This document shows positions 33,885-40,272 of a DNA stretch of 64,000 nt, one piece after another. Under the pieces are notes generated by a model that worked only from the letters and a program-made list of their open reading frames with translations, made no database searches and was not told the DNA's origin. The first letter of the stretch is position 1. Every line of letters begins with the position of its first letter. The DNA is from a bacterium EF100-94H03 bin56. GTDB taxonomy: Bacteria; Pseudomonadota; Alphaproteobacteria; SP197. The translations under genes were made by a program, and so were the position numbers. Where the stretch lies: contig MPMV01000004.1 of assembly GCA_002238685.1 (NCBI GenBank), positions 62,001-126,000 of the forward strand, in the 5' to 3' direction.

Positions 33885-36404
33885 CTACCCCGGAAGGTCG
33901 AACGGTGCCGGATCGAGGAAGCGCCGCACGACGTTTCCGGTGATCCTGGCCACGTTGTTGTCATAGTCATCGTGGCACAGTCCGTCGCACCAGGATATGG
34001 AGCCGCTTGAGAACACCGCGCCGCCGGCCGGAGTCTCGAAGAACACCATGTCCGCCCTGACCAGGGGAGACGTCTCGCCATTGATGTCGGAGGTCAGGTG
34101 GTAGAATTCCTCGGGCAGGGTGAGATAGCTGGCGGGAAGACGGGTGGCGCTGGCAACGACAAGCGCATGTTCGGGCGTGCCGAGATTCGTATCGGCCCGA
34201 TCGAGTTCCGCCCCCGCGGCACCGCCCAGAGCGAAACCGAAATCGCCGATTCTCTCGTTCTCCCCGACGCCCTCGAAGATCCATGCGGCGCGCGGGTCGC
34301 CGCTCGCTGCGGTGCGCTCGTAGTAGGAGGCCGAGTCGAATCCGCAGGCGGTGTAACCCACGCCGAACAGTTGCTGCGGTGTACGGCCGTTGCGCCGCCA
34401 CAGGCCGGAGAGCTCGCCGGTGAACGCCAGGTGGTACTCACCCGGCTCCGCGATCCAGTTCCGGCCTCCATCCTCGGCCCGGCGGGTTTCGATCAGGCCC
34501 GGATCCTCGGGATGATAGGCGATCTTCCAGTAGAAGCCGTTTCCGCCCAGGTACATGAACCGGCCGCCCTGCTCGAGGTAGGTGAGCAGCGCGTCCGACA
34601 TGGACTGCGAGGTGTACTCCGGATGGCTGCCCGAGATGACACAGCGATAGGGTTCCAGCAGGGCTGAACCTTCCCGGTCCAGCGCCTCGTCGGTCAGGAC
34701 ATCGTACGCATGGCCGCTCCGCTCGAGCCAGTCGAGAATCAGCGTATCCGCGCCGAAGTTCCACACGGACGTCCCTGGCGCCATGTCCACGATGGGCCGG
34801 TGCCGGGATGCGTAGCAGACACCGCTGCCATCGCTGTGCAGATCGTAGGTCGAGGCGCCGAGTTCCGGATGCATCTGCAGGAACATCTGGTTCCTGGTGA
34901 GGGTGGCGAACCGGTTCATGGTCCGCTCCAGGAACCGCCGGCGCTGCACGTGGGTGCCGTCGTTGCCGTAGCACACATAGGTGGCTGACGGCATCAGAAC
35001 CGCCAGTCGCGAACCCGGCTTTCCCCTGGCAGGGAGCACATGGAAGGTGGCGTAGGAGGTGTTGGCGCCCTGATGAAAGCACCCGCAATAGACGCCGCTC
35101 TTCCAGGCGCCCGGAATTGTCAGTGCAATGTCGTCATCCCAGCCGCAATCCACCACATCGTCCTCGTGAAGGTGGATGGCCCCGTAGTGAGCCGGATTGT
35201 CCGACCAACGATGCGCAGATCCGTCCCACCGGCTGCCCTTCATGGCCCTGGCCGGCAGGTTGACGGTGTGGCCGTTCCAGGCGTTGGGCGAGGTGTCCAT
35301 GATCCTGGTACCGGACGGTTCGCGGGAGAAATCCCAGGACGCGACGAGCGAGCCCTCGTCGCCGAGCGCTGAAGAGAACAGCGCCGGTGCCTCCAGCTTC
35401 CCGTTGAAGTGCGCGGTCATGAATCCATCGGACGCCCTTGACGCGCCGATGAAGAAGTCCCGCGGGCCGAAGTCCGGCTGAATCCCGATCGTGCGTTCGA
35501 TCCGGGCCTCGCGCAGGAGCAGGTGCCCCCTCTCCAGACAGCGATGCGACACGGCGAGTTTGCGACCCGCTGGATCAAAGCTCGCCGTTACTTCGTGCCA
35601 GGACTGGAGGGGCAGCGGCCTTGCCGTTGCGATGGTGACGACCTCGCCGGGGCCGGCGCCGACGGTCACGCTGGGGTGGCCCCTGTCGTCCAGACAGAGG
35701 ACAAAGCCGGTCTCGCATTCCGCGTCCCAGGCATTGACCAGCGCCTGTGGCTTGCCGGTCTTCAGCGTCGGCTTCACGTTCATTTGAACGGAGAACGCCT
35801 TCAGCGACACCGGACTTGGGCGGTCGAACCCAATGTATGAGCCGATCGATGTTGTCTGATTGCGCCCCTCGTAGTCACCGTCCGCCGCCGTGGGTGCGGG
35901 TGTCAGGTGCAGGCCCGGTCCCTCGGGATGACCGACGGCCGAGCGAATCCTGGCAACATCGAAGCGGTAGTTCGATGCCAGCGTGCCCGTCGACACCTTG
36001 AAGTTGACGACCTCTCCGGGGCGCACGTCCCAGCGATCCGCATAGGCGAGCAGCCGTTCGTCAACCACCGGGTGCCGCGGACGGTCGGCCAGCGCCATAT
36101 CCTCGCCCAGGGGCAACCGACGCCCGGTCAGCATCTCCCAACGGAGCTTGAACATGGCTTTCAGCGCATCTCCGTAGGTCTCGAAGCGCACACCCTCGTA
36201 GATGCGGACCGGGTCCCCGCGCCGATCGCTTGCCGTGCCGAGCCCGAATGCACCGTTCTGCGTTTCGACAATGACGTGCGGATCGTCGACCGTGTCGGCC
36301 CGCATGATGGTCAGCAGGCGCTGAAGATCCGGACTGTGCGGCCCTTCGGGGTTCTCGAAGAACTCCTCGCACGGAGCCAGATCGCACGGGTCGATGTTCA
36401 GCAT
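33885..36404 (-). CDS. N,N-dimethylformamidase-like enzyme, apparent fusion of small and large subunits
   Basis: The large-subunit family of N,N-dimethylformamidase (iron-dependent amidohydrolase giving formate and dimethylamine) explains residues from about 115 on. It begins 'LLAYADRWDVRPGEVVNFKV', has a ConA-like sandwich ('SVQMNVKPTLK', 'EVTASFDPAGRKLAVS') and then the catalytic region with 'MPSATYVCYGNDG' near residue 490. The amidotransferase-like end has 'TLILDWLERSGHAYDVLTDEALDREG' and 'CVISGSHPEYTSQSM'. Residues 1-115, with 'SPDLQRLLTIMR' and 'YGDALKAMFKLRWEML', resemble the separate small subunit. GGGAGG just before ATG 36404 fixes the start (839 residues). The true substrate may be another formamide. 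It is the last of a six-gene run. Confidence 0.8.
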   Translation of the reverse strand: MLNIDPCDLAPCEEFFENPEGPHSPDLQRLLTIMRADTVDDPHVIVETQNGAFGLGTASDRRGDPVRIYEGVRFETYGDALKAMFKLRWEMLTGRRLPLGEDMALADRPRHPVVDERLLAYADRWDVRPGEVVNFKVSTGTLASNYRFDVARIRSAVGHPEGPGLHLTPAPTAADGDYEGRNQTTSIGSYIGFDRPSPVSLKAFSVQMNVKPTLKTGKPQALVNAWDAECETGFVLCLDDRGHPSVTVGAGPGEVVTIATARPLPLQSWHEVTASFDPAGRKLAVSHRCLERGHLLLREARIERTIGIQPDFGPRDFFIGASRASDGFMTAHFNGKLEAPALFSSALGDEGSLVASWDFSREPSGTRIMDTSPNAWNGHTVNLPARAMKGSRWDGSAHRWSDNPAHYGAIHLHEDDVVDCGWDDDIALTIPGAWKSGVYCGCFHQGANTSYATFHVLPARGKPGSRLAVLMPSATYVCYGNDGTHVQRRRFLERTMNRFATLTRNQMFLQMHPELGASTYDLHSDGSGVCYASRHRPIVDMAPGTSVWNFGADTLILDWLERSGHAYDVLTDEALDREGSALLEPYRCVISGSHPEYTSQSMSDALLTYLEQGGRFMYLGGNGFYWKIAYHPEDPGLIETRRAEDGGRNWIAEPGEYHLAFTGELSGLWRRNGRTPQQLFGVGYTACGFDSASYYERTAASGDPRAAWIFEGVGENERIGDFGFALGGAAGAELDRADTNLGTPEHALVVASATRLPASYLTLPEEFYHLTSDINGETSPLVRADMVFFETPAGGAVFSSGSISWCDGLCHDDYDNNVARITGNVVRRFLDPAPFDLPG

Positions 36405-36500
36405 TGTGACCTCCCGCTCGCAGTCCGACAGCTGCACGTTGCAGACGATACAAGAGGGAGGTATCCGGCGACAGTCGGGAAGTCGGGTCTGGTTCCAGGC

Positions 36501-37346
36501 TCAAGCGAGACGAAGCAGGGCAACCGCCGCCGCAAGCAGGACCATGGCGGCAATGCGGACCCGTCCCGGCCTTTCCCTGAGCACGAAGAGGCCGATCAGT
36601 GCTCCGAACAGGATGCTGCTTTCGCGCAAGGCCGCCACAACGGCAACCGGAGCATGCACCATGGCCCAGATGACGATGGCGTAGGCCAGCATGGAGAGCA
36701 GGCCACCGGTCAACGATTGCGCGATGCCTCGTCCTGGCGCCTGCAGGAAACGACCGCGGCGCAACCACAGAACCACGCCGATGGTGGGCCAGGCATCGAG
36801 AAAGAAGAGCCAGACCGCATAGGCGATCGGGTCGCCGGCGGCCCGACCGCCGAGCCCATCGGCGATTGTATAGGCGCAGATGGAGCATGCGGTCAGACCG
36901 GCATACAGAAGAGAACGGTCGTCGGTGGCTTCGAAAGTCGTGCGGCGCCAGGCAACGCCGAGGATCGCCAGCAGGATCAGGCCGATCGCGATAAGAGCAA
37001 GATCACCGAGTTCCTCCCGGAGAAAGACCAGTGATACGAACGTCACCATCAGCGGCGCTCCACCGCGGGCGATCGGATAGACCCGGCTGAAGTCGCCATG
37101 GCGATAGGCCATCGCCAGCAACAGATTGTAGATCGTGTGTATTGCCGTCGACACAAGCAGGTAGGGCCAGGCGGCGGCGACCGGGACTCCTGTAAACGGC
37201 ACCGCGAGACCGGCTGCCACGCCGGAAGCGACCGACATCCACGCCATGCCGATCAGCGGATCGGATTGCGCCTTGACCGCGGCGTTCCAGGCCGCGTGCA
37301 ACAGGGCCGCAAACAGCACCGCCAACAGGACATGCGTGGCAATCAT
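36501..37346 (-). CDS. EamA/DMT-superfamily transporter
   Basis: The 281-residue inner-membrane protein has ten predicted helices in two EamA repeats, each with the family pattern. Repeat 1 has 'HAAWNAAVKAQSDPLIGMAW' and 'VYPIARGGAPLMVTFVSLVFLREEL'; repeat 2 ends 'VVAALRESSILFGALIGLFVLRERP'. Members export or import amino acids, polyamines and small metabolites. It lies 96 bases before the dimethylformamidase-like gene in the same direction, so a substrate or product of that pathway is a fair guess. Confidence 0.88.
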   Translation of the reverse strand: MIATHVLLAVLFAALLHAAWNAAVKAQSDPLIGMAWMSVASGVAAGLAVPFTGVPVAAAWPYLLVSTAIHTIYNLLLAMAYRHGDFSRVYPIARGGAPLMVTFVSLVFLREELGDLALIAIGLILLAILGVAWRRTTFEATDDRSLLYAGLTACSICAYTIADGLGGRAAGDPIAYAVWLFFLDAWPTIGVVLWLRRGRFLQAPGRGIAQSLTGGLLSMLAYAIVIWAMVHAPVAVVAALRESSILFGALIGLFVLRERPGRVRIAAMVLLAAAVALLRLA

Positions 37347-38394: not shown

Positions 38395-40272
38395 TCACCC
38401 GGTTTGATCCGGGGCCCGGAGATCGACGGCCGTCCGGAATCCGATGGTGGCACAGCGGTCGAGACCGGGCCACATGAGCAGGTACTTGGCGGCAAACGCC
38501 GCATCGTGCACTCCTCCGTCCGCGTACCAGTCTGATGTCGCGCAGTGATGGTGACTGCCGCCCTTCACAACACAGAACCGTGTTCGTCCATCACTCATTT
38601 CAGGCTCGGTCCAGTTCCAGACACGCACCGGGTCGTCGCCCAGCAAACCGTCCTCAGCAGCCCGTTGCCACTCCGCTTCCGTGGGCAGACGCCGCCCGAG
38701 CCAGGATGCATAGGCGCGGGCATCGTCGGGATCAACCCGTGTGACCGGCTCATGGGGCCCAGCCCCGGGTTCGAGAAAGAACCCGGGAGCATCGGGAGAG
38801 TACCCTGTTTCCTCCGCGAAACGCCGGTAGGCCGCCACGGTGACGGAATACCTGTCAATGGCAAATGGCGACAGATCCTCCCTGAACTCCAGGGACACCA
38901 TGGAATGGAGCCCGGGGAGAACCGGACCGGTGCTCTCACCGGCACGGGCACTCTCGTACATACCGCACTCACGCAGTCTGAAACGGGTGCGGCGCACATG
39001 GAGACCCCCGGTCACGCAGGCCACCCCGTCCGGCTCCTGTCCCGAAACCGGGGGTCCTGGCAGCGTTCGGGCCCTGGGGACGAGACGTGACTGCTCGTGT
39101 CGAGCATGGTCGAGTTGCCGGTGCCGGTTGGCCTGGCCTTCCAGGAAATCACTGTCCACCGCTTCCTCGACTACAGCACCGAGACCGGCCGCCGGGATGT
39201 CGATCGCGACCTGGTGATCCTTGATGGCGAGCTGGCGTCCAGCCACAGGGTCGCAGGCCGCCACGGTGCTGACGGGAAGACGAACGCCCGAAACCGGTTG
39301 GCGATTGCGATTGATCAGTGTCCACAACCGGATGCCGTCAAGTTCCCAGCTTGAGGCGAATACGCCCGGTGCCGGCATGCAGGCGAGCGGTGTCCACGTC
39401 CCTTCGCAGATGTGACGGGACCACCGGCGAAGTACCTGGCTCGCCAGATTCCATTGAACGGCATCCCGGTCTCGCCAGCCGTTCCAGGAACCGAAGACAT
39501 TCTCCCACACCACCATGCCGACGCCGTTCATCCACGCCAGCTGGATTTCCGGCGTGTGGTCTGCCATCCAGCGGCGCACGACATGGATCATGTGGTGGCG
39601 ATCCAGAATCCTGTTGGCGAACACACCTGGCGCCCAGGAATCATCCCATGATTCAGCCCAACCCATGCGATGGTCGGCAAGCCGTTCGGGCGGCACAGGG
39701 GCCTGGGACTGCAGGACGATGCCAGGCCTGGCATCCTCGAGCGCGGCGGAGAGATCACGTCCTGCAGACGACAGGGTGTCAAGGTAGAGGCCGTCCGCGT
39801 CGACTTGCGTCACAAAGTCGGCAAGGCAGGCTGCATCGTCGCGGCCTTCCCGGCGGGTCTCCATATCCCAGGGGTTGTAGGCGAGAAGGACACGGATGCC
39901 GCGGACGTGCAGGCGCGAGGTCACATCGGCGAGACCCTGCAGGCCGCCGGGCATGCAGCGCCAGAAGTCGAACTGGTTGCGCCGGTCGAAGCCAAGGTTG
40001 GGGTAGGCGTGCCAGAGGATGACGCCGTCAAGGGAGCCGAAGCGCGCCTCGAATGCATCGACGTAGTCCTCGACGAGCCACGTCCCGGATCTGCGATCGT
40101 GGAACCGTTCATCCCAGAGCAGGATCTTGTGTGCCGTGAAACAGCGACGCACCCACTCGTGGGCGGGTTTCGTCCCGGCGAGACTGCACGACCTGCGCCA
40201 TGCCTCCAGGCGATCACGCCAGGCAGGCCAGTCGCCGGGCTCGTCGGGTGCGGGAATCAGGAAGCGTGACAT
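38395..40272 (-). CDS. TIM-barrel glycosidase-like protein fused to a formylglycine-generating-enzyme (SUMF1) domain
   Basis: The 625-residue protein combines two parts I do not recall seeing joined. Residues 1 to about 330 look like a glycosidase barrel: 'DGVILWHAYPNLGFD', 'GIRVLLAYNPWDMET', 'DADGLYLDTLSSAG' with a possible catalytic Asp, and 'LAWMNGVGMVVWENVFG'. A sandwich-like linker follows. Residues 470-625 are an FGE domain: 'FAIDRYSVTVAAYRRFAEETGY', 'RRLPTEAEWQRAA', 'CVVKGGSHHHC' and a GFR end. No signal peptide is seen, so it is cytosolic. It overlaps the enolase-superfamily gene by 16 bases and may act on the same carbohydrate-like compound. No sulfatase lies nearby, so sulfatase activation is unlikely. 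Confidence 0.7.
   Translation of the reverse strand: MSRFLIPAPDEPGDWPAWRDRLEAWRRSCSLAGTKPAHEWVRRCFTAHKILLWDERFHDRRSGTWLVEDYVDAFEARFGSLDGVILWHAYPNLGFDRRNQFDFWRCMPGGLQGLADVTSRLHVRGIRVLLAYNPWDMETRREGRDDAACLADFVTQVDADGLYLDTLSSAGRDLSAALEDARPGIVLQSQAPVPPERLADHRMGWAESWDDSWAPGVFANRILDRHHMIHVVRRWMADHTPEIQLAWMNGVGMVVWENVFGSWNGWRDRDAVQWNLASQVLRRWSRHICEGTWTPLACMPAPGVFASSWELDGIRLWTLINRNRQPVSGVRLPVSTVAACDPVAGRQLAIKDHQVAIDIPAAGLGAVVEEAVDSDFLEGQANRHRQLDHARHEQSRLVPRARTLPGPPVSGQEPDGVACVTGGLHVRRTRFRLRECGMYESARAGESTGPVLPGLHSMVSLEFREDLSPFAIDRYSVTVAAYRRFAEETGYSPDAPGFFLEPGAGPHEPVTRVDPDDARAYASWLGRRLPTEAEWQRAAEDGLLGDDPVRVWNWTEPEMSDGRTRFCVVKGGSHHHCATSDWYADGGVHDAAFAAKYLLMWPGLDRCATIGFRTAVDLRAPDQTG

Follow-up and report, generated by a model that had tools for sequence, protein, structure and literature searches.

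The question raised by this locus is whether one gene encodes both the small and the large subunit of an enzyme of the N,N-dimethylformamidase (DMFase) type, as a first-pass annotation of the sequence had proposed, and whether such a joining is real. DMFase converts DMF to formate and dimethylamine. In Paracoccus (DmfA1/DmfA2; 6lvb, 6lvv), it consists of two chains from two genes, whereas the protein considered here is one chain. The window analysed, i.e. the whole 64-kb stretch of DNA (64,000 nucleotides), carries the following features at this locus:

36501..37346, minus strand, EamA-family transporter gene, directly upstream of the fused gene (PF00892)
36410..36415, minus strand, Shine-Dalgarno-like GGGAGG, 5 nt ahead of the fused-gene ATG (from the sequence)
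33885..36404, minus strand, fused DmfA1-DmfA2-like gene, 839 codons plus stop, conserved in six orthologs
36114..36404, minus strand, DmfA1-like small-subunit domain, residues 1-97 (profiles; fold match to 6lvv_B/6lvb_B, Z 10)
36057..36113, minus strand, linker, residues 98-116 (equal length in 6/6 orthologs; no conserved ATG)
33888..36056, minus strand, DmfA2-like large-subunit region, residues 117-839 (6lvb_A, E 8.7e-126)
35364..35837, minus strand, LamG/pentraxin-like domain, residues 190-347, domain II in DMFase (PF13385)
33963..35249, minus strand, DMFA2_C catalytic domain, residues 386-814 (PF20254, E 2.8e-86)
34968..34970, minus strand, Y479 codon, equivalent to Fe ligand Y399 (alignment; role from PMC7686228)
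34845..34847, minus strand, Y520 codon, equivalent to Fe ligand Y440 (alignment; role from PMC7686228)
34617..34625, minus strand, H594-P595-E596 codons, equivalent to essential H519 and Fe ligand E521 (alignment; role from PMC7686228)

The fusion is a single conserved reading frame

The open frame that had been marked at 33885-36404 is real and lies on the minus strand: the ATG is at 36404, the stop codon occupies 33887-33885 and the product has 839 aa, with the three motifs quoted in the annotation at residues 24, 77 and 121. The frame is without stops as far as 36500. Translation of the plus strand over coordinates 33885-36404 meets several stops.

We found the fused gene in four of the 10 genomes of the window's genus (its own and three at 89-90% identity) and also in two genomes of a second genus (74-75% identity). 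In each of the six orthologs (six related species, two genera, 74-90% identity) the gene is a single frame and the linker length is constant; i.e. small and large subunits in one chain, as proposed, and one open frame in six genomes rather than the separate small and large chains of an a2b2 enzyme. For the small part dN/dS was ~0.08-0.32 and for the large part 0.12-0.18, by which measure both parts are under purifying selection; the linker is looser, although that stretch is too short for firm values. The joining of the subunits is real, yet as a departure from a known enzyme family it is modest.

A six-frame scan of the 64-kb window with a small-subunit profile and the large-subunit sequence returned the fused ORF only, in agreement with the remark that no small-subunit gene lies nearby. 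The annotation had taken a separate dmfA1 elsewhere in the genome as an argument against a fusion. Five free small genes do exist in this genome, so that part of the expectation failed; however, each adjoins a different large paralog, and for that reason the fusion reading still stands.

The N-terminal domain belongs to the DmfA1 family

Searched against the PDB as a single sequence, residues 1-117 gave noise only, and there was no matching model for the small domain in Pfam or NCBIfam; the link to DmfA1 emerged solely with a profile. When an alignment of 14 small-protein sequences (two of them fused) was compared with the PDB, 6lvb_B ranked first with an E of 2.3e-6, the runner-up being at 0.13. 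A stricter profile was built from 66 free-standing small proteins, with the fused, permease-linked and true DmfA1 sequences left out. It scored the window N-terminus at 3e-24 and the annotated P. aminophilus dmfA1 at 7.8e-10. The residues that are invariant across the small family are retained in the fused domain.

The AlphaFold model of residues 1-117 alone (pLDDT 83.5) matched 6lvv_B with a Z of 10.2 (rmsd 2.6 over 94 residues), the next unrelated chain reaching a Z of 3.4, and Foldseek also put 6lvv_B first (E 4.5e-3, probability 1.00). The predicted fold is that of the DMFase small subunit. The suggestion that residues 1-115 resemble this subunit is accordingly borne out for residues 1-97, which profile similarity and modelled structure both identify as a DmfA1-type small subunit. 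The structural alignment starts at DmfA1 residue 29, and nothing in the window domain corresponds to the ~28 residues before it. This unmatched segment covers part of a helix which, in DMFase, is wedged between two large subunits at the dimer interface.

The large-subunit part retains the iron-site residues

Similarity to the large subunit begins at residue 117, close to the onset at about residue 115 read from the sequence at first pass, and PDB and Pfam matches both identify the chain beyond this point as DmfA2. In the PDB search, residues 117-834 aligned with residues 5-758 of 6lvb_A, the DMFase large subunit from Paracoccus (E 8.7e-126), and PF20254 (DMFA2_C) scored 290.7 bits against a cut-off of 27, within the large-subunit family. 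N-acetyl-(R)-beta-phenylalanine (NABP) acylase (8huy_A) matched the large part about as well (E 8.6e-124). The acylase entries (8huy, 8i59, 8i5a) represent a large-subunit homolog with a nearly equal score; unlike the window protein, they list a single type of chain (~770 residues) that has no DmfA1-like portion.

The iron ligands of DMFase are Y399, Y440 and E521, H519 is essential and N547 is also listed (PMC7686228); the mutants 6lvd and 6lve confirm the numbering of Y440 and E521. Their counterparts in the window protein are Y479, Y520 and E596 for the ligands, H594 for H519 and N622 for N547, and all five residues are invariant in the window protein and all 53 aligned relatives. The resemblance to Paracoccus DMFase covers both subunit families, the arrangement of domains along the large subunit, the 2-Tyr-1-Glu iron site and the essential His; besides the single chain, the difference lies in the ~28 missing N-terminal DmfA1 residues.

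Alternative explanations

In most relatives the two genes lie next to each other or overlap, and the window genome is a draft in 102 contigs, both of which would fit two overlapping genes joined by an assembly or sequencing error. We consider this extremely improbable given that the unbroken frame and the equal linker length recur in six separately assembled genomes from two genera; for the window's clade, the same frame in six separate assemblies refutes it. Another alternative is internal initiation at the GTG of codon 113, whereby the mRNA would also yield a free large subunit and both kinds of chain would be present. This codon is present in 6/6 orthologs, about where separate large subunits begin, but GTG often encodes valine in G+C-rich DNA and, unlike the ATG with its GGGAGG, it has no Shine-Dalgarno-like sequence ahead of it, making such dual expression very unlikely.

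The N-terminal domain might instead be vestigial or regulatory, with the large part working alone like NABP acylase. The fused small domains do sit on a long branch (1.24 in the small-subunit tree) and the N-terminal residues of DmfA1 are missing from the window domain. Nevertheless, residues 1-97 are under purifying selection similar to that on the large part and keep the invariant residues of the small family, and we judge this explanation unlikely. We therefore prefer a conserved fusion in which the N-terminal domain serves as the small subunit.

Distribution and gene arrangement

The window's order was sampled as one family of 16 genomes. These gave 58 small-subunit matches, seven of which continue into a large subunit. 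Six of these are the orthologs; the seventh is an 854-aa fusion (G011:C296, L084 2074-4638) found in one genome only, which is also among those carrying the six-ortholog fusion. The tree of 53 large subunits requires two fusion origins, forced by well-supported branches, and the small-subunit tree places the second fusion far from the first, with unfused small genes as its neighbours in the tree. On these trees the 854-aa fusion arose independently, with assembly error possible for that single genome. In a class sample of 289 genomes, none of the 41 small-subunit matches outside the order was a small-large fusion. Seemingly long frames spanning the small subunit in G001:C10, G009:C1, G000:C13, G006:C29 and G101:C229 proved to be split genes and were rejected as fusions.

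Elsewhere the small gene is separate and usually directly upstream of the large gene. Such split DmfA1-like/DmfA2-like pairs, in the window's own genome and in Alphaproteobacteria, comprise the same two families and differ from the window in having two genes rather than one. Among the plasmid records checked, separate small and large genes also occur in those of P. aminophilus, Burkholderia, Agrobacterium, Methylobacterium, Aminobacter and the archaeon Halalkalicoccus.

The window genome (a 4.5-Mb draft) has 11 DMFA2_C (PF20254) genes, and window residues 1-117 match five other places in it, each a short ORF near a DMFA2-type gene. Some of the DMFA2_C genes lie in small-large-large arrays, and at one place (C25) the large gene precedes the small. 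The clade that is sister to the fused large subunits contains genes from the later positions of such arrays, among them C66 of the same genome and members of arrays in G009 and G001; joining its own small subunit may have freed the fused copy from sharing one.

At the same-genus loci that were read, the fused gene follows an EamA transporter gene. In the second genus its surroundings are different, so the neighbourhood says little about the substrate. Further along the window, at 38395-40260, is an ORF with a C-terminal-side FGE-sulfatase domain, preceded by ~460 residues without a Pfam match.

Proposed function

Judged from its sequence, the window gene very probably encodes a DMFase-type amidohydrolase with a mononuclear Fe(III) centre; the enzyme would be self-contained, with its small subunit covalently attached, and probably cytosolic. 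The chain would consist of the small subunit (residues 1-97), a linker of ~19 residues and a complete DmfA2-type large subunit with Ig-like, LamG-like and catalytic domains. The N-terminal domain would sit on the catalytic domain in the manner of the separate subunit, stabilising it and helping to form the substrate entry, and the fusion would fix the pairing in a genome with many large and fewer small paralogs. Docking between the parts is not visible in the full-chain AlphaFold model, which reached a pLDDT of 35 with six close sequences as input. Since the large subunit of DMFase by itself shows no activity and reduced stability (PMC7686228), a benefit of tethering is plausible. Conversely, NABP acylase is as close to the large part as DMFase is, and its structures were solved with one kind of chain listed, so some members may not require the small domain.

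The substrate is presumably an amide, with an N-acyl amino acid or another larger amide more likely than DMF itself. The loop at residues 650-683 is closer to NABP acylase (22/34 identical) than to DMFase (14/34), which faintly suggests a substrate of the N-acyl amino acid type.

Small subunits attached to permeases

On rhizobial and other plasmids, a DmfA1-like small subunit also forms the C-terminal end of a branched-chain-type ABC permease of ~550 aa:

L118 1606-3264, Rhizobium sp. NIBRBAC000502774 pMK-2, permease-small-subunit fusion (PF02653)
L153 4971-6626, Aminobacter sp. MDW-2, permease-small-subunit fusion
L154 4974-6629, Agrobacterium tumefaciens 186 pAt, permease-small-subunit fusion
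L126, L145 and L147, further loci with permease-small-subunit fusions

These fusions are annotated as permease only. In most loci checked, L145 being outside that check, a dmfA2 gene follows directly. The tail of the L145 protein matches 6lvb_B (E 2.9e-11), 26 plasmid records match at least 80% of that protein, and in the small-subunit tree the permease-fused small subunits group with true DmfA1. On plasmid 2 of the archaeon Halalkalicoccus jeotgali, a small-subunit homolog (L117 2764-3306) lies directly upstream of a dmfA2 gene; its annotation as an 'inner-membrane translocator' is probably wrong.

Our literature search, which covered the open-access subset, found no report of a fused DMFase or of a DMFase with a permease. 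Neighbouring subunit genes commonly become fused, and the permease fusions may be more informative than the small-large fusion. Tentatively, the DmfA1-like subunit could be a portable docking module, joined at least twice to a large subunit and separately to a permease tail, with some amidases assembling on the transporter that imports their substrate.

As an arrangement found in nature, the fusion is evidence that DmfA1, a poorly understood subunit, acts in a one-to-one ratio with the large subunit in a broad family of amidases and not just in DMF degraders, and the fused gene is a one-gene construct for probing the role of the small subunit. The 11 DMFA2_C genes in one genome, together with the permease fusions, suggest a wide range of unexplored amide substrates and hint that hydrolysis may be coupled to transport.
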